A DNA stretch of 10,122 bases, taken from assembly GCA_031254955.1 (NCBI GenBank), contig JAIRTK010000475.1:1-10122 (forward strand), in the 5' to 3' direction. The notes beneath the pieces were generated by a model. That model saw only the letters and a list, made by a program, of their open reading frames with translations, was not told the origin of the DNA and ran no database searches. Every line of letters starts with the position of its first letter. Position 1 is the stretch's first letter. This stretch comes from Opitutaceae bacterium (GTDB taxonomy: Bacteria > Verrucomicrobiota > Verrucomicrobiia > Opitutales > Opitutaceae). Shown in pieces: positions 3,247-10,122 of the stretch. The position numbers and the translations under genes were made by a program.

Positions 3247-3398
3247 ATACCCTTTCCCAGAGAACATGACCCTTTAGAAACAGAGCCATGTAGGGGCTTC
3301 GCTTGCGAAGCCCGTTGCTGGAGCACGGCCTGCCCGGTCATCAAGCCGGGCGTCGCAAGCGACGCCCCTACAAAAGAGTGATTTTCATTGGGAATGGG
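3247..3398. repeat. palindromic intergenic element, copy A (152 bp)
   Basis: The element has imperfect terminal inverted repeats: the left end reads CCCTTTCCCAG and the right end, reverse complemented, CCCATTCCCAATG. Further in, CTCTTT-like and TGTAGGGGC motifs recur in inverted orientation. Two near-perfect internal hairpins follow: GGGCTTCGC-TT-GCGAAGCCC (around 3295-3313) and GGGCGTCGC-AA-GCGACGCCC (around 3348-3367). A directly oriented near-identical copy lies at 4961-5120. No open reading frame is inside. The structure suggests a REP/BIME-like or MITE-like non-autonomous element. Confidence 0.85.
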
Positions 3399-3730: not shown

Positions 3731-3814
3731 CATCCGCCATCCCTTTTCTCACCATCCGCCATCCCGCTTCCAGCATCCGCTATTCCGCTTCCAGCATCCG
3801 CCATTCCTCTTCCC
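3731..3814 (+). repeat. degenerate heptamer tract abutting the prfB start
   Basis: About 12 heptamer-length units related to GCATCCG, CCATTCC and GCTTCCA, with one register shift near 3752. A 21-nt super-repeat is clear: GCTTCCAGCATCCG at 3766-3779 and again at 3787-3800. The tract ends 3 nt before the prfB ATG, exactly where a ribosome binding site would sit. The strand sense to prfB is pyrimidine-rich with no GGAGG. It resembles tracts before sufS and rsmI on their own sense strands. Confidence 0.75.
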
Positions 3815-3817
3815 ATC

Positions 3818-4961
3818 ATGATCACACCTGAAACCTTTTCCCATATCGAAAATATCAAAAAGCGCGCCGGCCACTTATGGAGGTTTCTTTGACGTTGACC
3901 AAAAGACCCGCGAAATAGAAGCGCTCGAAGCCTGCATGGGCGCGCCCGATTTTTGGGACAACAACGAACGCGCCCAGCAACACATCGCCAAGCTGAACGG
4001 CCTGAAACACGCCATCCAGCCCCTCGTCGCGTTCCAGAAAAAAGTCGATGACATCGCCGTGATGATCGAACTCGTCGAAGCCGCCGGGGACGAAGAGCAG
4101 GAAACCTACGCGCAAGAACTCGACGCCACCACGCTCGCGATGCTTGAGGAACTCGACGGCATCGAAATCGCCTCCTTCCTCACCGGACGCTTCGACAGGA
4201 ACAACGCCATCCTCTCCATCCAGTCCGGCGCCGGCGGCACCGAGTCCAACGACTGGGCCGACATGCTCTTCCGCATGTATGCCCGCTGGGCGGAACGCCG
4301 GGGCTTTGAAATCGAAGTGCAATACGTGCAACCCGGAGACCAGGCCGGCATCAGCCGCGCCACGCTCCTGATCAAGGGCGAAAACGCCTACGGCTACGCG
4401 AAAGCCGAGCGCGGCGTGCACCGCCTCGTGCGCATCAGCCCGTTCGATTCCAACAAACGCCGGCACACCTCGTTTTGCGCGGTGGATGTGATCGCCGAAA
4501 TCGACGACGAAATCAAAATCGACATCCCCGAAAACGAGCTGCGCGTGGACGTTTACCGCTCCTCCGGCAAAGGCGGCCAAGGCGTCAACACGACCGACTC
4601 CGCCGTGCGCATCACGCACCTCCCGAGCGGCATCGTGGTGGTCTGCCAGAACGAGCGCTCGCAAATCAAAAACAAGGCCAGCGCGATGAGCGTGCTGAAG
4701 GCGCGCCTCTACGAAAAGCGCCTCGACGAGCAACGCGGCGAGATGGAACGTTTCTACGGCGAGAAAGGCCAGATTGGCTGGGGCAGCCAGATCCGCAGCT
4801 ACGTGCTGCAACCCTTCCAGATGGTGAAAGACTTGCGCACGGGCATCGAGACCAGCGACACGCAAGGCGTGCTCGACGGCGAGATTGCCCGCTTCATCAA
4901 CGGCTGGCTGCGCGCCGGCTGCCCGCGTCACCGCAACAAGGACATCCAAATGGAAGAGTAA
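3818..4961 (+). CDS. prfB: peptide chain release factor 2 with programmed +1 frameshift
   Basis: RF2 recognises UAA and UGA in the ribosomal A site and triggers peptide release in the cytoplasm. The reading frame is split: 24 codons from ATG 3818 reach an in-frame TGA (3890-3892), and a +1 shift continues at GAC 3891 through 356 codons to TAA 4959-4961, for a 380-residue product (E. coli RF2 is 365). The RF2-specific anticodon tripeptide SPF is at 207-209 and the catalytic GGQ at 252-254, each two residues from the E. coli positions. The N-terminal helical domain is residues ~1-110, followed by the codon recognition and GGQ domains. RF2 level is autoregulated, because low RF2 lets the ribosome pause at UGA and shift. 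The start ATG has no Shine-Dalgarno; a heptamer tract precedes it. The gene is convergent with metY and flanked by two copies of a palindromic repeat. Confidence 0.98.
3879..3893 (+). promoter_or_regulatory. prfB programmed +1 frameshift site
   Basis: A Shine-Dalgarno-like GGAGG (3879-3883) sits three bases before the slippery codon CTT (3887-3889), followed by TGA and C (3890-3893). The arrangement SD, 3-nt spacer, CTT TGA C matches the classical bacterial RF2 recoding signal. The conserved protein continues in the +1 frame ([13 protein letters not shown]), while the zero frame ends after LWRFL. This rules out a sequencing error as the explanation. Confidence 0.96.
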
Positions 4962-5120
4962 TACCCTTTCCCAGTGAAAATTACTCTTTAGAAGCAGGGC
5001 CATGTAGGGGCTTCGCTTGCGAAGCCCGTTGCTGGTGCACGGCCTTTGCTGGTGCACGGTTATCAAACCGGGCGTCGCAAGCGACGCCCCTACAAAAGAG
5101 TGATGTTCATTGGGAATGGG
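4961..5120. repeat. palindromic intergenic element, copy B (160 bp)
   Basis: Same element and orientation as 3247-3398: ATACCCTTTCCCAG at the left end, GGGCTTCGC/GCGAAGCCC and GGGCGTCGC/GCGACGCCC hairpins inside, CATTGGGAATGGG at the right end. It differs by a near-tandem duplication of TTGCTGGTGCACGG (5029-5042 and 5046-5059), present once in copy A, which accounts for most of the length difference. The left end coincides with the last base of the prfB TAA. Lying between convergent genes, its hairpins could end transcription from both sides. Confidence 0.87.
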
Positions 5121-5213
5121 GATAAGGCGCGTGCCGCCCCGAGGGCATGCAGGTTTGTTTTGCGACCTATTAAGCGGAAATTGTTCTATTCTATTTTTGC
5201 TTGGGGGTGGGCG

Positions 5214-6515
5214 TCAGACTTGCGCGAGGGCTTGTTCGAGGTCGGCTTCGATGTCCACGAAATCCTCCGTGCCGATGGAGAGGCGGATGAAGTCGGGGGA
5301 GACGCCGGCTGCGTGCAGTTCGGCGGCGTTGAGCTGGCTGTGCGTCGTGCTCGCGGGGTGGATGGCGAGCGAGCGGGCGTCGCCGATGTTGGCCACGTGC
5401 GAAAACAGTTTCAGCGATTCGATGAGTTTGCGTCCGGCATCGTATCCGCCCTTCACGCCGAAGCCGAGCAATCCGCCGTGGCCGCCGGACAAATACTTTT
5501 TGGCGGCTTCGTGGTGCGGGCTTTCTTTCAGTCCGGGGTAGTTGGTCCAGGCGACTTTGTCGTGGGCGGCGAGGTAGTGGGCGGTTTTGAGCGCGTTGTC
5601 GCAGATGCGCGCCATGCGCAGGTGCAGGGTCTCCAGGCCTTGGAGCATGAGGAAGGCATTGAAGGGCGAGAGGCAGGCGCCCATGTCGCGGAGGAGTTGG
5701 AGGCGCATTTTCATGGCGTAGGCGATGTTGGCGCCGGCGGCGGGGGCGAAGTTGCCGAAGGTTTCCCAGTGTTTGAGGCCGTGGTAGCTTGGGTCGGGTT
5801 CGGTCAGGCCGGGGAAGCGGGCGCCGGTCGTCCAGTCGAAGTTGCCTCCGTCAACGACGATGCCGGCGATGGAGGTGCCGTGGCCGCCGATGTATTTCGT
5901 GGAGGAGTGGACGACGATGTTGACGCCCCATTCGAAGGGGCGGTTGAGGATGGGCGAGAGGCAGGTGTTGTCCACGATGACGGGGATGCCGGCGTCGCGC
6001 GCGATTTTGGAGACTTCTTCGAAGGGGAAGATGTTGAGCGCGGGGTTGCCGAGGCCTTCGCCGTAGAAGGCTTTGGTGTTGGGGCGGAGCGCGCGGCGGA
6101 AGGCGTCGGGGTCGTCGGCGTCAACGAAGGAGACTTCGATGCCGAGTTTTTTGAGGGTGTAGTGGAAGAGGGTGTAGGTGCCGCCGTAGAGTTGGGAGAC
6201 GGAGACGATGTGGTCGCCGGCTCCGGCGAGGTTGAGGATGGCGTTGGTGATGGCGGCCTGGCCCGAGGCGTGCGCGAGCGCGGCGGTGCCGCCTTCGAGC
6301 GCGGCGACGCGTTGCTCAAACACGTCGGTCGTCGGGTTCATGAGGCGGGTGTAGATGTTGCCGAGTTTGCGGATGCCGAAGAGGTCGGCGGCGTCGGCGG
6401 CGTCGCGGAAGACGTAGCTGCTGGTTTGGTAGAGGGGGACGGCGCAGGAGCGGGTGGCGGGGTCTGCCTGCTGGCCGGCGTGGAGGGCTTTGGTGCCGAG
6501 TCCTTGGTAGTGCAT
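5214..6515 (-). CDS. metY: O-acetylhomoserine sulfhydrylase (aminocarboxypropyltransferase)
   Basis: This cytoplasmic PLP enzyme of the Cys/Met metabolism family makes homocysteine from O-acetylhomoserine and sulfide (direct sulfhydrylation for methionine synthesis). I chose the ATG at 6515, giving 433 residues, typical for the family; the in-frame ATG at 6578 would add a 21-residue low-complexity Thr/Arg-rich leader. Visible family features are YTRLMNPT (55-62), SGQAA with the cofactor phosphate-binding region (84-88), SQLYGGTY (107-114), VDNT (181-184), and the Schiff-base lysine in SSTKYIGGHG at about K207. The C-terminal IRLSIGTED is also characteristic. Cystathionine gamma-synthase and methionine gamma-lyase are relatives, but the long insertions and the GNPALNIFP segment favour MetY. 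It is downstream of sufS on the same strand with a 177-nt gap, so co-transcription is possible but unproven. No Shine-Dalgarno is seen. Confidence 0.93.
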   Translation of the reverse strand: MHYQGLGTKALHAGQQADPATRSCAVPLYQTSSYVFRDAADAADLFGIRKLGNIYTRLMNPTTDVFEQRVAALEGGTAALAHASGQAAITNAILNLAGAGDHIVSVSQLYGGTYTLFHYTLKKLGIEVSFVDADDPDAFRRALRPNTKAFYGEGLGNPALNIFPFEEVSKIARDAGIPVIVDNTCLSPILNRPFEWGVNIVVHSSTKYIGGHGTSIAGIVVDGGNFDWTTGARFPGLTEPDPSYHGLKHWETFGNFAPAAGANIAYAMKMRLQLLRDMGACLSPFNAFLMLQGLETLHLRMARICDNALKTAHYLAAHDKVAWTNYPGLKESPHHEAAKKYLSGGHGGLLGFGVKGGYDAGRKLIESLKLFSHVANIGDARSLAIHPASTTHSQLNAAELHAAGVSPDFIRLSIGTEDFVDIEADLEQALAQV

Positions 6516-6564
6516 GGTGGCGGGTGTGGTGGTTGAGGCGGTGGCGAAGAGGGAAAGGCGGCGG

Positions 6565-6590
6565 GTGGCACGTGGCAAGTGACAAGTGGG
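6565..6590 (-). repeat. short heptamer repeat upstream of metY
   Basis: On the + strand the units are GTGGCAC, GTGGCAA, GTGACAA, GTGGG; in metY sense this is CACTTGT CACTTGC CACGTGC CAC. Only about 3.5 units, ending 50 nt before the metY start. The rest of the sufS-metY gap (6516-6692) is GC-rich low-complexity sequence with no identified promoter or terminator. Confidence 0.5.
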
Positions 6591-6692
6591 CGCGGGGCGG
6601 GGCGGGGTTGGGGAGCGGTGCGGGCGGGCGGGGGTGTGTCCGTGGCGTTTGGGTTGACCGGACTCGCGTTGGCTTCAGTCAATGAGGGGGAG

Positions 6693-7928
6693 TCAGGTGA
6701 AGAATTTCAGTATCCGGCGCAGGGATGCGGTGAGCTTGTCGATTTCTTCGGGGGTGTTGTAAACATAGAAGCTTGCGCGTGTCGTGCTCGGGAGGCCGAG
6801 TTTTTTCATCAGCGGCTGGTTGCAGTGGTGGCCGCCGCGCAGGGCGATGCCGTCTTGGTCGGCGAGGGTCACGATGTCGTGGGCGTGCACGTCCTTGAAG
6901 GCAAAGCTCACGGTCCCGCCGCGTTGCACGGAATCGAGCGGGCCGAGGATGCGGATGCCGGGCAGTGCGCGCAGGGCTTCGTGGCAACGGGCGGCGAGGG
7001 CGGTGTCGTGCGCGGCGATGGCCGGGCGGCCAAGTCCGTCGAGGTAATCCATCGCGGCGCGCAGGCCGATGGCGTCGGCGACGTTGGGGGTGCCGGCTTC
7101 GAAGCGTTCGGGCGAGGGTTTCCAGGTGCTGCCGGTATACTCGACGGTGTTGATCATGCCGCCGCCGCCTTGCCAGGGCGGCATGGTGTCGAGGAGTTCG
7201 CGCCGGCCGTAGAGCACGCCGATGCCGGTGGGGCCGGCCATTTTGTGGCCGGAGAAGGCGAGGAAATCGCAGCCGAGGGCGCGCACGTCGATGGGTTCGT
7301 GTCCGATGGATTGCGCGGCGTCGATGAGGGTGAGCGCGCCGGCTTTGCGGGCGCGGGCGCAGAGGTCGGCCACGGGATTGATGACGCCGAGGGTGTTTGA
7401 GATGTGCGTGAAGGCGAAGAGTTTCACCGTGGGCGTGAGCAGGCGGTCGAGCGCGTCGAGGTCGAGGCCGTGCTCGGCGTTTTCGCCGGCGACGGGCACG
7501 TGGCGGAGTGTCGCGCCGGTGCGTTGCGTGATGAGTTGCCAGGGCACGAGGTTGGAGTGGTGCTCCATTTCGGTGATGAGCACGGTGTCGCCGGGGCGGA
7601 GGTTGGCGGTGCCCCAGCTTTGGGCGACGAGGTTGATGGATTCGGTGGTGCCGCGAGTGAAGACGATTTCGGAGGGGGCAGCGGCATTGATGAAGGTGGC
7701 GGCGCGGGCGCGGGCCGCTTCGTAGCCGTCGGTGGCGCGCATGGAGAGCGCGTGGAGGCCGCGGTGCACGTTGCTGTTGTCGTGTTCGTAGTAACGGGTG
7801 AGCGTGTCGATGACGGCGCGGGGTTTGTGCGTGGTCGCTGCGTTGTCGAGATAGACGAGCGGTTTGGCGCCGACTTGCTGGTGCAGCGCGGGGAAATCGA
7901 GGCGGATATGGGCAAAGGTGTCGGACAT
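6693..7928 (-). CDS. sufS: cysteine desulfurase SufS (group II)
   Basis: SufS is a PLP enzyme that removes sulfur from cysteine as a protein persulfide for iron-sulfur cluster assembly. The 411-residue length is standard. Visible are the N-terminal YLDNAATTHKP (26-36), HRGLHALS (55-62), TRGTTESINLVA (91-102), EMEHHSNLVPW (120-130), the PLP lysine in FSGHKMAGPTG at K229, and the catalytic cysteine in RGGHHCNQPLM at C369. The short loop around the cysteine marks group II (SufS-type) rather than IscS/NifS. The ATG at 7928 gives the normal N-terminus; no Shine-Dalgarno precedes it, and a heptamer tract begins 20 nt upstream. Its partner sufU lies just upstream on the same strand with a 245-nt repeat-filled gap. 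SufBCD genes are not in the window. Confidence 0.96.
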   Translation of the reverse strand: MSDTFAHIRLDFPALHQQVGAKPLVYLDNAATTHKPRAVIDTLTRYYEHDNSNVHRGLHALSMRATDGYEAARARAATFINAAAPSEIVFTRGTTESINLVAQSWGTANLRPGDTVLITEMEHHSNLVPWQLITQRTGATLRHVPVAGENAEHGLDLDALDRLLTPTVKLFAFTHISNTLGVINPVADLCARARKAGALTLIDAAQSIGHEPIDVRALGCDFLAFSGHKMAGPTGIGVLYGRRELLDTMPPWQGGGGMINTVEYTGSTWKPSPERFEAGTPNVADAIGLRAAMDYLDGLGRPAIAAHDTALAARCHEALRALPGIRILGPLDSVQRGGTVSFAFKDVHAHDIVTLADQDGIALRGGHHCNQPLMKKLGLPSTTRASFYVYNTPEEIDKLTASLRRILKFFT

Positions 7929-7948
7929 GGCGGAAAGGCGGATTTTTA

Positions 7949-8038
7949 GGAATGCTGAATGCTGAATATGGAATGCTGAATGTTGAATGCTGAATGAGGA
8001 ATGTGATTTTGGTTTTTGGAATGTGGATTTTGGAATGT
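7949..8038 (-). repeat. heptamer tract upstream of sufS
   Basis: Eight consecutive in-register heptamers occupy 7949-8004 on the + strand (GGAATGC, TGAATGC, TGAATAT, GGAATGC, TGAATGT, TGAATGC, TGAATGA, GGAATGT). After a T/G-rich break come three more units (8018-8038: GGAATGT, GGATTTT, GGAATGT). In sufS sense the consensus is GCATTCM. It fills the leader region directly before the sufS start, just as the tract before prfB does. Confidence 0.85.
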
Positions 8039-8050
8039 GTTTTTTCTTAT

Positions 8051-8124
8051 TCGTTCTCGTTCTCTTACTCGTTCTCGTTCTCTTTTTTTGGGGCGCAATT
8101 TCCCGGAAGAAAGAACGAGAACGA
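8051..8124. repeat. CGTTCT hexamer inverted repeat between sufU and sufS
   Basis: TCGTTCTCGTTCT occurs at 8051-8063 and again at 8069-8081. Its exact reverse complement AGAACGAGAACGA is at 8112-8124. This gives a 13-bp stem with a ~30-nt loop that contains a T-run and GGGGCGCAATTTCCC. In the sufU/sufS direction it could act as an attenuator or terminator, but the T-run is inside the loop rather than after the stem, so that role is weak. Confidence 0.7.
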
Positions 8125-8173
8125 AAACGATTGTTTGGGCGGTGCTGCGGAGTGGGCGGAGGGTTTTCGGCTT

Positions 8174-8638
8174 TCAGGGGGTCAGGGTTTCAGGGTTTCT
8201 GGAGTTCAGGGTTTCAAGGGTTTCCTTACGGAGCGCGTCGAGCGCGGCGTGCCAGGCGAGGGTGGCGCATTTGATGCGGGCGGGAAAGGCGTGCACGCCG
8301 GCAAACGCGGCCATTTCGCAAAACTCCTCGGGAGCGCGTCCGGTTTTCACGATGGTGGCAAATGTCTCGAAGGTCGCGGCGGCTTCGGCGGCGGTTTTTT
8401 CCTTGAGCAGCGTGGTCATGAGCGAGGCGGAGGCTTGCGAGATGGCGCATCCGGCGCCTTCGAAAGTGATTTCGGCGATGCGGTCGCCTTCGAGCCGCAG
8501 GTAAACCGTGCAGTGGTCGCCGCAGGTCGGGTTGTCGCCGGTGGCGGCGCGGGTGGCGTTGGGCATCCGGCGGCGGTTGCGCGGGCGTTTGTTGTGGTCG
8601 AGGATGACGGACTGGTAGAGATCGTTGAGTTCGCTCAT
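8174..8638 (-). CDS. sufU: SufU, zinc-dependent sulfur transfer protein for Fe-S assembly
   Basis: SufU is an IscU-like protein that accepts persulfide sulfur from SufS, using a bound zinc ion. The 154-residue product starts at ATG 8638; the same frame is open further upstream, but that extension runs through a polypurine repeat and would add 81 low-complexity residues. The expected ligands are present: C39 and D41 in NPTCGD, C64 in GAGCAISQAS, and C124 in RIKCATLAW. The insertion before the last cysteine (~100-123, containing FAGVHAFPARIKC) distinguishes SufU from IscU. The conserved fold ends near residue 138. The last 16 residues (139-154, ETLETLNSRNPETLTP) are encoded exactly by an AGGGTTTC octamer tract, an apparent repeat-derived tail. 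It sits directly upstream of its partner sufS on the same strand. Only a weak purine cluster precedes the start. Confidence 0.95.
   Translation of the reverse strand: MSELNDLYQSVILDHNKRPRNRRRMPNATRAATGDNPTCGDHCTVYLRLEGDRIAEITFEGAGCAISQASASLMTTLLKEKTAAEAAATFETFATIVKTGRAPEEFCEMAAFAGVHAFPARIKCATLAWHAALDALRKETLETLNSRNPETLTP
8176..8224. repeat. AGGGTTTC octamer tract encoding the SufU C-terminus
   Basis: On the + strand the units are AGGGGGTC, AGGGTTTC, AGGGTTTC, TGGAGTTC, AGGGTTTC, a single A, AGGGTTTC. The tract lies inside sufU from codon 139 and stops at the last base of the stop codon. Confidence 0.85.
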
Positions 8639-8732
8639 GAACGGCCCGCCAACATGGACGCAAAACGCGGGCAAGGCAATCGCCGGGATGCGCGGATGGA
8701 CGTGAAGGGTGCGTTTCAAACCAAGGACACGC

Positions 8733-8849
8733 CCTCTTTCTTCGTTACTCTTTCTTCGTTCTCGTTCTCGTTCTCTTTCTTTTTTCCCCTCCGAGCGGTG
8801 CCGCTGGGGGAGAAAGAGAAAGATAAAGATAAAGAGGAAAGAAGAAAGA
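8733..8849. repeat. polypyrimidine/polypurine inverted repeat upstream of sufU
   Basis: A ~58-nt C/T-rich arm (8733-8790, including three CGTTCT units at about 8757-8774) is followed by a small palindrome AGCGG-TG-CCGCT and a ~44-nt G/A-rich arm (8806-8849, AGATAAAGATAAAGAGGAAA-like). The arms pair imperfectly around the central hairpin. The strand asymmetry could also permit triplex or slipped structures. It lies 95 nt upstream of the sufU start. Confidence 0.7.
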
Positions 8850-8922
8850 TCGCGGACGCATGGCCTCACTCGGAAGCGCACTTGGGCGCGGAATGTCCGC
8901 CACCGGCCTATCCTTCTAATTA

Positions 8923-9028
8923 ACTGATGTTACGCGGACGGCGTAGTGCAGGCACGGCAGCGCCGGCAGGGAGGCCTCTCCGAGGCCTCCCTGCTTTCCT
9001 TTGGAAATGGAATCCGCGTAACATTAGT
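8923..9028. repeat. MITE-like element with 16-bp terminal inverted repeats
   Basis: Left end ACTGATGTTACGCGGA (8923-8938) and right end TCCGCGTAACATTAGT (9013-9028) are inverted repeats with one mismatch. Inside is a perfect 13-bp hairpin GCAGGGAGGCCTC-tcc-GAGGCCTCCCTGC (8966-8994). Total length is 106 bp with no coding capacity. No clear target-site duplication is seen. Confidence 0.7.
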
Positions 9029-9062
9029 GAGTAAAATCAACCACGGATATTACGGATTAAAA

Positions 9063-9102
9063 CCTAATGTGATAACCTTTACTAATGGAAATCACACTAA
9101 GG
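9063..9102. repeat. imperfect inverted repeat in AT-rich segment
   Basis: CCTAATGTGAT (9063-9073) and ATCACACTAAGG (9091-9102) pair imperfectly around a 17-nt spacer. The TAATG words resemble the adjacent 8923-9028 terminal repeat, so it may be a remnant of the same family or an operator-like dyad. Confidence 0.35.
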
Positions 9103-9113
9103 AAGCCGTTAAG

Positions 9114-9166
9114 GGTAGGGCGGCCGCGAGCGGTTCACACGGCTTGGCGGGACGCCTCGCCCTACC
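9114..9166. repeat. GGTAGGGCG/CGCCCTACC inverted repeat
   Basis: Perfect 9-bp inverted ends (9114-9122 and 9158-9166) enclose a GC-rich centre. They have the same character as the GTAGGGGC ends inside the elements flanking prfB. Probably another small intergenic palindrome family. Confidence 0.55.
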
Positions 9167-9208
9167 TGAAGGGGGATTTCCAGTCACAAATGGCATTACG
9201 CGGCGCGT

Positions 9209-9287
9209 AGAGCCTGGCCTTGCTTCAGGCCGCGGATGACCTGTGCGGTCTCCCACGCACGCGCGGCCTGAGGCAGGGTCAGGCTCT
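9209..9287. repeat. 26-bp inverted repeat downstream of rsmI
   Basis: The arm at 9209-9234 begins AGAGCCTGGCC and the arm at 9262-9287 is its reverse complement with three mismatches. Each arm contains its own CCTG...CAGG mini-hairpin. The sequence is related to GCCTGACCTTGTGTCAGGC at 3476-3494, so the two sites may be one family. It lies 50 nt after the rsmI stop and may form its transcript end. Confidence 0.65.
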
Positions 9288-9336
9288 GCGCAATTCGCGC
9301 GCGGCGCGCGGCATCAGTTAATGGCACGGGCTGGGG

Positions 9337-10122
9337 TCAGAGGGTGAATCCCTCCGGGGCGATGAGGATGGTGAACTCGCCTTTGAGGCTGGTTCGGGCC
9401 AGGCGGTCGCGGACTTCGGCGGCGGGGCCGGCGAGGAAGGTTTCGTGGAGCTTGGTGACTTCCTTGGCCACGCAGAGGACGCGGGCGGGGCCGAGTTTTT
9501 CGGCGATTTCGGCGACCAGCTTGTCCACGCGATGGCAGCTTTCGTAGAGGGCGAGGGTGTATTCAAAGTCGCGGTATTTTTCCAGAAACGCGACGCGGGC
9601 GGAGGATTTGGGCGGCAGGAATCCGGCGAAGAGAAAACCATTGGTCGGAAGGCCGGAGGCGCTGAGCACGGCGGCGAGCGCGCAGGCGCCGGGCACGGGG
9701 ACGACGGGCAGTCCGAGGCGGCGGCAGGCGCGCACGAGGCGGAAGCCGGGGTCGCTGATGGCGGGCGTGCCGGCGTCGCTCACGACGGCGACGGACTTGC
9801 CCGCGGCGATTTGCGCGGCGAGGCGTCCGGCGGCGGCGGTTTCGTTGTGGTCGTGATAGGCGGCGAGTTCGCGGCGCGGGAGGCCGAGGCGGGCGATGAG
9901 CGCGCCGGTGGCGCGGGTGTCCTCGCATGCGATGAGATCGACAGTGGAAAGGATGGCGCGCGCGCGGTCGGTGAGGTCGGCGAGGTTGCCGATGGGCGTG
10001 GCGACGACATAGAGGTGGCCGGGACGCGGGGTGAGGGAGGCGTTGGGGGAGTGCGGAGTGCGGATTGCGGAGTGCGGAGTGTGGAATGTGGATTGCAGAA
10101 TGGGAAATGTGGATTGCGGAAT
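9337..10122 (-). CDS. rsmI: 16S rRNA (cytidine1402-2'-O)-methyltransferase RsmI, 5' end unresolved
   Basis: RsmI uses S-adenosylmethionine to methylate the ribose of C1402 in the 16S rRNA decoding centre. The conserved protein begins at GHLYVVATPIGNLADLT (from 10020) and continues through CEDTRATG, YHDHNE, SDAGTPAISDPG, PGACALAAVLSASGLP and FAGFLPPKS to LKGEFTILIAPEG, then TGA at 9337-9339. These are hallmark motifs of the tetrapyrrole-methylase-fold YraL/RsmI family. It lacks the ~50-residue C-terminal helical domain of the E. coli enzyme, as many homologues do. No ATG, GTG or TTG occurs in frame between 10020 and the window edge at 10122. The frame instead stays open through a heptamer tract, so the start is either beyond the window or non-standard. 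The end coordinate given is the edge, not a start codon. Confidence 0.95.
   Translation of the reverse strand: MPQSTFPILQSTFHTPHSAIRTPHSPNASLTPRPGHLYVVATPIGNLADLTDRARAILSTVDLIACEDTRATGALIARLGLPRRELAAYHDHNETAAAGRLAAQIAAGKSVAVVSDAGTPAISDPGFRLVRACRRLGLPVVPVPGACALAAVLSASGLPTNGFLFAGFLPPKSSARVAFLEKYRDFEYTLALYESCHRVDKLVAEIAEKLGPARVLCVAKEVTKLHETFLAGPAAEVRDRLARTSLKGEFTILIAPEGFTL
10048..10122 (-). repeat. heptamer tract at the 5' end of rsmI
   Basis: Ten heptamers in unbroken register on the + strand, from GGAGTGC (10048) through GGATTGC, GGAGTGT, GGAATGT and GAAATGT to GGATTGC (10117), then GGAAT at the edge. In rsmI sense the consensus is RCAYTCC, close to the sufS tract. It probably continues beyond the window. 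Confidence 0.88.

Follow-up and report, generated by a model that had tools for sequence, protein, structure and literature searches.

Why several unrelated genes of one bacterium should each lie beside a run of degenerate heptamers is the question raised by the window, a complete contig (contig 180) of 10,122 bases from an Opitutaceae-like MAG. The initial annotation described tracts with a strict 7-nt period directly before prfB, sufS and rsmI and a shorter one before metY, and offered leader elements, protein-binding arrays or a self-propagating repeat that favours leaders as explanations. The source MAG (G000) is fragmented (574 contigs, 3.58 Mb, 68.7% complete), and a search of a plasmid collection with the window gave no match. 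The account favoured here, with moderate confidence, is that the tracts are pieces of scattered REP-like palindromic units that spread non-autonomously, with arms that slip and single arms that remain.

Heptamer tracts in the window

The features under discussion are as follows.
3731..3814, + strand: heptamer tract in the prfB leader (a 21-nt unit fits), TRF score 108, ending 3 nt before the ATG at 3818
3818..4961, + strand: prfB, from sequence, ORFs and orthologues
6565..6590, - strand: short CACTTGY-family tract, TRF score 36 (weak), with the likely metY ATG (6515) ~50 nt downstream
6693..7928, - strand: sufS, an ORF with matches in 34/34 genomes searched
7949..8038, - strand: GCATTCC/GCATTCA-type tract in the sufS leader, TRF score 73, 20 nt from the ATG
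8045..8130, no strand: inverted repeat with TTCTCG-type hexamer arms, separating a sufU-like gene from sufS
9337..10122, - strand: rsmI, an ORF with matches in 34/34 genomes searched, its 5' end lost at the contig end
10048..10122, - strand: GCATTCC-type tract inside the rsmI ORF, reading IPQSTFPILQSTFHTPHSAIRTPHS, TRF score 76, reaching the contig end

TRF thus finds tracts near all four genes at roughly the coordinates first claimed. Their period is not strict: at prfB the best description is a 21-nt unit with 87% matches and indels. The common pyrimidine-rich consensus on the gene sense strand holds for prfB, sufS and rsmI but not for metY, whose tract belongs to the CACTTGY family, which forms inverted arms elsewhere (L191, L195).

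The prfB leader is 99 nt long in G000 vs. 35 nt in the congener G002, a difference of 64 nt, and the G002 leader contains a short pyrimidine seed. The tract thus seems to have expanded locally from such a seed, still visible in G002. It has no inverted partner and its predicted RNA folding is weak (-3.9 kcal/mol). The G001 leader carries an apparent period-8 tract, and no tract is marked in the prfB leaders of G004, G006 and G022. Within the gene, CTTTGAC at 3887-3893 is presumably a +1 programmed frameshift site. Separately, an inverted pair with GTAG ends (GTAGGGGCTTCGC... ...GCGACGCCCCTAC) occurs in two copies at 3290-3371 and 5004-5093, within a longer common repeat, resembling a GTAG REP dimer.

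The sufS tract also has no inverted partner among the listed pairs, and its RNA is nearly unstructured (-0.7 kcal/mol). At the same leader G002 carries a different palindrome and G001 a different tract, and other repeats are present in the sufS leaders of G005 and G008, which belong to other genera. The neighbouring sufU-like gene has repeats of its own. A period-8 tract of the CCTGAAAC type (8160-8224) overlaps the 3' end of this ORF, the C-terminus of which (ETLETLNSRNPETLTP) looks repeat-encoded as a result, and a second inverted pair with TTCTCG/TCTTTC-type arms lies upstream of the gene at 8734-8849.

The tract at rsmI does not lie directly before the gene, as first described, but inside its ORF. 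The frame is open up to the contig end, and no in-frame ATG, GTG or TTG separates the tract from the conserved part. In the congeners G002 and G001, the in-frame ATG precedes the shared NASLTP motif by 96 nt in one and 141 nt in the other, and the frame passes from the ATG through a shorter tract into NASLTPRPGH, while rsmI of G004 is without a tract. By this comparison the rsmI tract is predicted to be coding. It is also the point where the contig stops, as would be expected if repeats break assemblies.

Dispersed families of period-7 repeats

Four sets of intergenic sequence were scanned for periodicity, comprising 40 systematic contigs of G000, a second G000 sample of 20 contigs chosen largely for their tract hits, and stretches of two other genomes (22 of G002, 20 of G022). 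Period-7 tracts numbered 13 in the systematic sample, 33 in the hit-enriched one, 11 in G002 and 5 in G022, against 0.0 in dinucleotide shuffles each time. In G002 and G022 no lag between 4 and 12 except 7 exceeded 2 tracts. The scan therefore bears out tracts far in excess of shuffles, but 7 nt is not the sole period of G000, where in the systematic sample lag 6 gave 15 tracts vs. 13 for lag 7 and lags 8, 9, 10, 12 and 13 are raised as well (6 to 9 tracts). Several families of degenerate period-7 repeats are dispersed genome-wide in spacers, leaders and ORFs. The strict GCATTCC-type pattern occurs in 18 of 288 Verrucomicrobiota genomes, with a patchy distribution.

Palindromic units with a common core

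Many of these tracts are arms of palindromes, in which a heptamer arm is followed by a GC-rich core and an inverted arm. The sampled sequence yielded 60 rows of inverted pairs, representing 57 distinct elements, of which 19 lie within called genes. Near-perfect inverted arms of at least 30 nt occur at many loci. Among GCATTCC-type tracts, 20 of 43 have a partner within 280 nt, always on the same side, with none on the other. The predicted RNA fold of a full unit is strong, at -79.5 kcal/mol over 111 nt.

A single core, GGCGCGGYRGCGYC, is present in 34 copies in the sampled sequence. A period-7 tract follows it in 13 of these (AATCGAA in four, AATCGTA in three, CATTCCG in three, ATTCCTA and CTACTCG in one each, and one unnamed) and the remaining 21 adjoin none. 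Five scrambled versions of the core gave 8 copies in total, none followed by a period-7 tract. Hence one core is common to the arms of five families, two of them through a single copy each.

The core is a short palindrome in many dispersed copies, as are GTAG REPs and REPINs. None of the 34 copies has the GTAG tag itself in the 8 nt on the 5' side of the core, and one (the CTACTCG-armed copy, L019) has CTAC in the 8 nt on the 3' side. At another locus, L029, GTAG stands beside a palindrome.

Inserts read in frame inside genes

The complete list for G002 holds 41 GCATTCC-type pattern matches at 22 sites. Called ORFs contain 19 of these sites, including one in the first codons (L315), and the reading frames are open across the inserts. 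By eye, we take the insert-bearing proteins to be PurL, Mfd, a U32 peptidase, GcvP, UvrA, MnmG, RdgB, an M3 peptidase, a Snf2-type helicase and others. Coding sequence makes up 81% of the G002 sample, such that ~18 of 22 sites would fall in ORFs by chance, and therefore coding DNA is not avoided.

Orthologues differ at these sites. At GcvP site 2 the distance between anchors is 17 aa in G004, 21 in G006 and G022, 25 in G001, 29 in G003, 42 in G000 and 83 in G002, with CAAATGCGG common to G001 and G002. At Mfd site 1, G002 has a complete pair spanning 42 aa and G000 has 63 aa with a decayed left and a long right arm. The interval is 11-16 aa in representatives of five other genera, and 16 aa in G001, where a GC-rich stretch may be a remnant. 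The heptamer differs between G001 and G002 at both Mfd site 2 and GcvP site 1. Across the compared orthologues the frame stays open, even as inserts come and go and differ in length and sequence. Mfd site 2 also shows different heptamer-armed palindromes at the same site in G001 (L332/L325) and G002 (L323), and the G001 inverted repeat extends into the flanks.

Position and orientation relative to genes

A consistent place before start codons had been proposed for the tracts. The three G002 sites outside ORFs are indeed in leaders, none of them more than 13 nt from a start, although starts are approximate because they come from a simple codon-usage gene caller. Under random placement in same-strand spacers of the four samples, tracts within 15 nt of starts numbered 2 vs. 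a mean of 1.4, 3 vs. 3.8 and 0 vs. 1.0, and 8 vs. 4.9 (p=0.09) in the second sample, mostly chosen for tract hits. With no significant excess in spacers and 19 of 22 G002 sites in ORFs, closeness to start codons was rejected as a general rule.

Orientation fares better. The rule first suggested for the GCATTCC family is upheld, as 37 of the 40 unpaired tracts that are informative have GCATTCC on the gene sense strand, a count drawn from partial listings of several genomes with possible residual duplicates. Six other families together give 19 sense vs. 11 antisense. Tracts between divergent or convergent genes (3 unpaired) were excluded as uninformative. Rows without an overlapping period-7 tract were dropped, along with duplicates, because loose patterns gave short chance hits for ATTTTCG; this changed the GCATTCC-type count from 38 vs. 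3 to 37 vs. 3. Some tracts counted as single, L313 and L001 among them, appear in the inverted-pair list with a diverged left arm, and one of the three exceptions (L016) is itself a pair there. For G002, where the list is complete, each of the 12 unpaired tracts agrees with the gene sense; 9 of the 12 follow the chromosome halves, and the three that do not still follow the gene. No clear replichores were seen in the G002 sample, where local skew tracks gene orientation.

The bias may follow strand composition. Sense strands are C-rich, and the last 30 nt of G000 leaders have a C content of 0.385 and a G content of 0.167. Of 158 G000 leaders, 7 contain an SD-like motif vs. 45 for the complement control, with approximate starts, which suggests SD-independent initiation. 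C-rich sense strands and G-poor, SD-poor leaders may thus account for GCATTCC on the sense strand. The opposite arm, GGAATGC, is G-rich and carries an ATG in every frame, and a tentative alternative, somewhat unlikely and compatible with REP-like spread, is that orientation reflects avoidance of this arm in mRNA rather than base composition. The clear bias does appear only where the opposite arm has an ATG (37 vs. 3, compared with 19 vs. 11 for the others), but strand composition could account for the same bias, and paired elements inside ORFs show no depletion of ATG in their left arms. The ATG-making base is present in 25 of 33 left arms vs. 26 of 38 right arms (p=0.60), which does not support ATG avoidance as the sole cause.

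Proposed origin and spread of the tracts

Under the favoured account, palindromic units would spread as non-autonomous REP-like elements, their arms would change in length in both directions by slippage, and the loss or decay of one arm would often leave a lone tract. The sense bias of single arms would probably stem from strand composition or selection. In the window, the tracts of rsmI and sufS would be single arms, and that of prfB would have expanded locally. Of the earlier idea of a self-propagating repeat favouring leaders, the spreading repeat is retained but the preference for leaders is not, given the ORF sites of G002. Several sites are common to congeners, so that much of this may be ancient and passed on by descent, with no movement involved, and different heptamer families at one site could reflect tract turnover without insertion. 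No target-site duplication was established. No mobiliser was identified. The RAYT family (PF01797) would be the obvious candidate, but it is present in 43 of 57 genomes and does not evidently track the heptamer pattern; it occurs without the pattern (e.g. G005, G009), and the pattern occurs without it in G019, G025 and G031.

A doubtful alternative treats the tracts as ordinary heptanucleotide microsatellites, arising by local slippage in pyrimidine-rich leaders and tolerant protein loops, with pairs made by template switching and no mobile element. It fits the apparent growth of the prfB tract from the seed seen in G002, the C-rich leaders, the different tracts borne by relatives at the same sites and the raised periods of 6, 8, 9, 10, 12 and 13 in G000. 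However, near-perfect inverted arms of at least 30 nt at many loci, and a core common across families, are hard to make by local slippage alone.

A stop-free heptamer would encode the same seven residues in every frame (AFRIPHS for GCATTCC), because 7 is not a multiple of 3, and this frame-independent reading would therefore make coding insertions tolerable. That the palindromes form a class of non-autonomous, frame-neutral coding elements, with stop-free arms and a unit length adapted for colonising ORFs like spacers, is quite unlikely.

By analogy, the tracts might be functional leader elements, arrays to which a translational regulator (S1, a Csp or CsrA, for example) would bind, a very improbable reading which gains from the gene-sense orientation, the scant RNA structure (as at sufS) and the start-proximal position of all three non-ORF sites of G002, but which faces 19 of 22 sites in ORFs, a start preference that is not significant in the samples and orthologous leaders that do not conserve the tract sequence. 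The protein-binding array of the initial annotation is likewise disfavoured by unrelated repeats at the same places in congeners (Mfd site 2, the sufS leader) and relatives (GcvP site 1).

If REP-like units are indeed the source, enzymes of this lineage such as Mfd, UvrA and GcvP bear loops encoded in frame by repeats and unlike from one congeneric species to another, which offers a natural experiment in how proteins absorb repeat DNA. Two cautions follow for work from raw sequence: apparent leader repeats may be coding, and strand composition may yield an orientation bias.

Comparison with known systems

Cyanobacterial STRRs, the parallel drawn in the initial annotation, are heptanucleotide arrays which the window tracts resemble by description, and period-7 direct repeats in intergenic DNA, as in STRR and TAACTGA repeats, are found here. 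Opitutus terrae belongs to the Opitutaceae, the family that the source MAG resembles. Among the species examined by Di Nocera et al. (2013; PMC3733652), O. terrae is reported as the richest in GTAG REPs inside genes, with double REP insertions in both uvrA genes and many REPs paired, most 20-100 bp apart. The units described here share with these a verrucomicrobial host and palindromic repeats within ORFs. They differ in that O. terrae REPs are described as 20-40 bp long and GTAG-tagged (PMC3733652), whereas the arms here are period-7 arrays, the likeness being one of description.

Rickettsia palindromic elements (RPE) also lie in frame in protein genes, and palindromes within genes here likewise have open frames and shorter orthologues. 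RPE belong to a different phylum, and heptamer arms are not among the RPE features described in the available text (PMC3733652).

The TAACTGA repeats of Beggiatoaceae, as reported by MacGregor (2015; PMC4679880), are also period-7 direct repeats, mostly oriented to start codons with some in ORFs, and have been proposed as binding arrays for a translational regulator. Unlike the tracts here, they consist of one invariant heptamer arranged in groups of 2-6; of the 170 sets, 25 are not wholly intergenic. Read in the forward sense they have a stop in every frame, and one inverted case is reported (PMC4679880). Here tracts do not lie mainly immediately upstream of start codons. In Xanthomonas and Nostoc, GGGAATC and GGGGA(T/C)T heptamers likewise have the C-rich strand as the sense strand close upstream of ORFs and include intragenic cases, with inverted pairs in Xanthomonas. 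They differ in being G-rich units that form quadruplexes in vitro, and a palindromic core common to copies is not among the features described in the available text (PMC4692102).

Literature searches listed no publication on heptamer-armed palindromes in Opitutaceae among their matches. Intragenic REPs and heptamer repeats are each already known; within the literature searched, no description came up of heptamer-armed palindromes lying in frame inside conserved genes, a combination that would unite two lines of research in one lineage.
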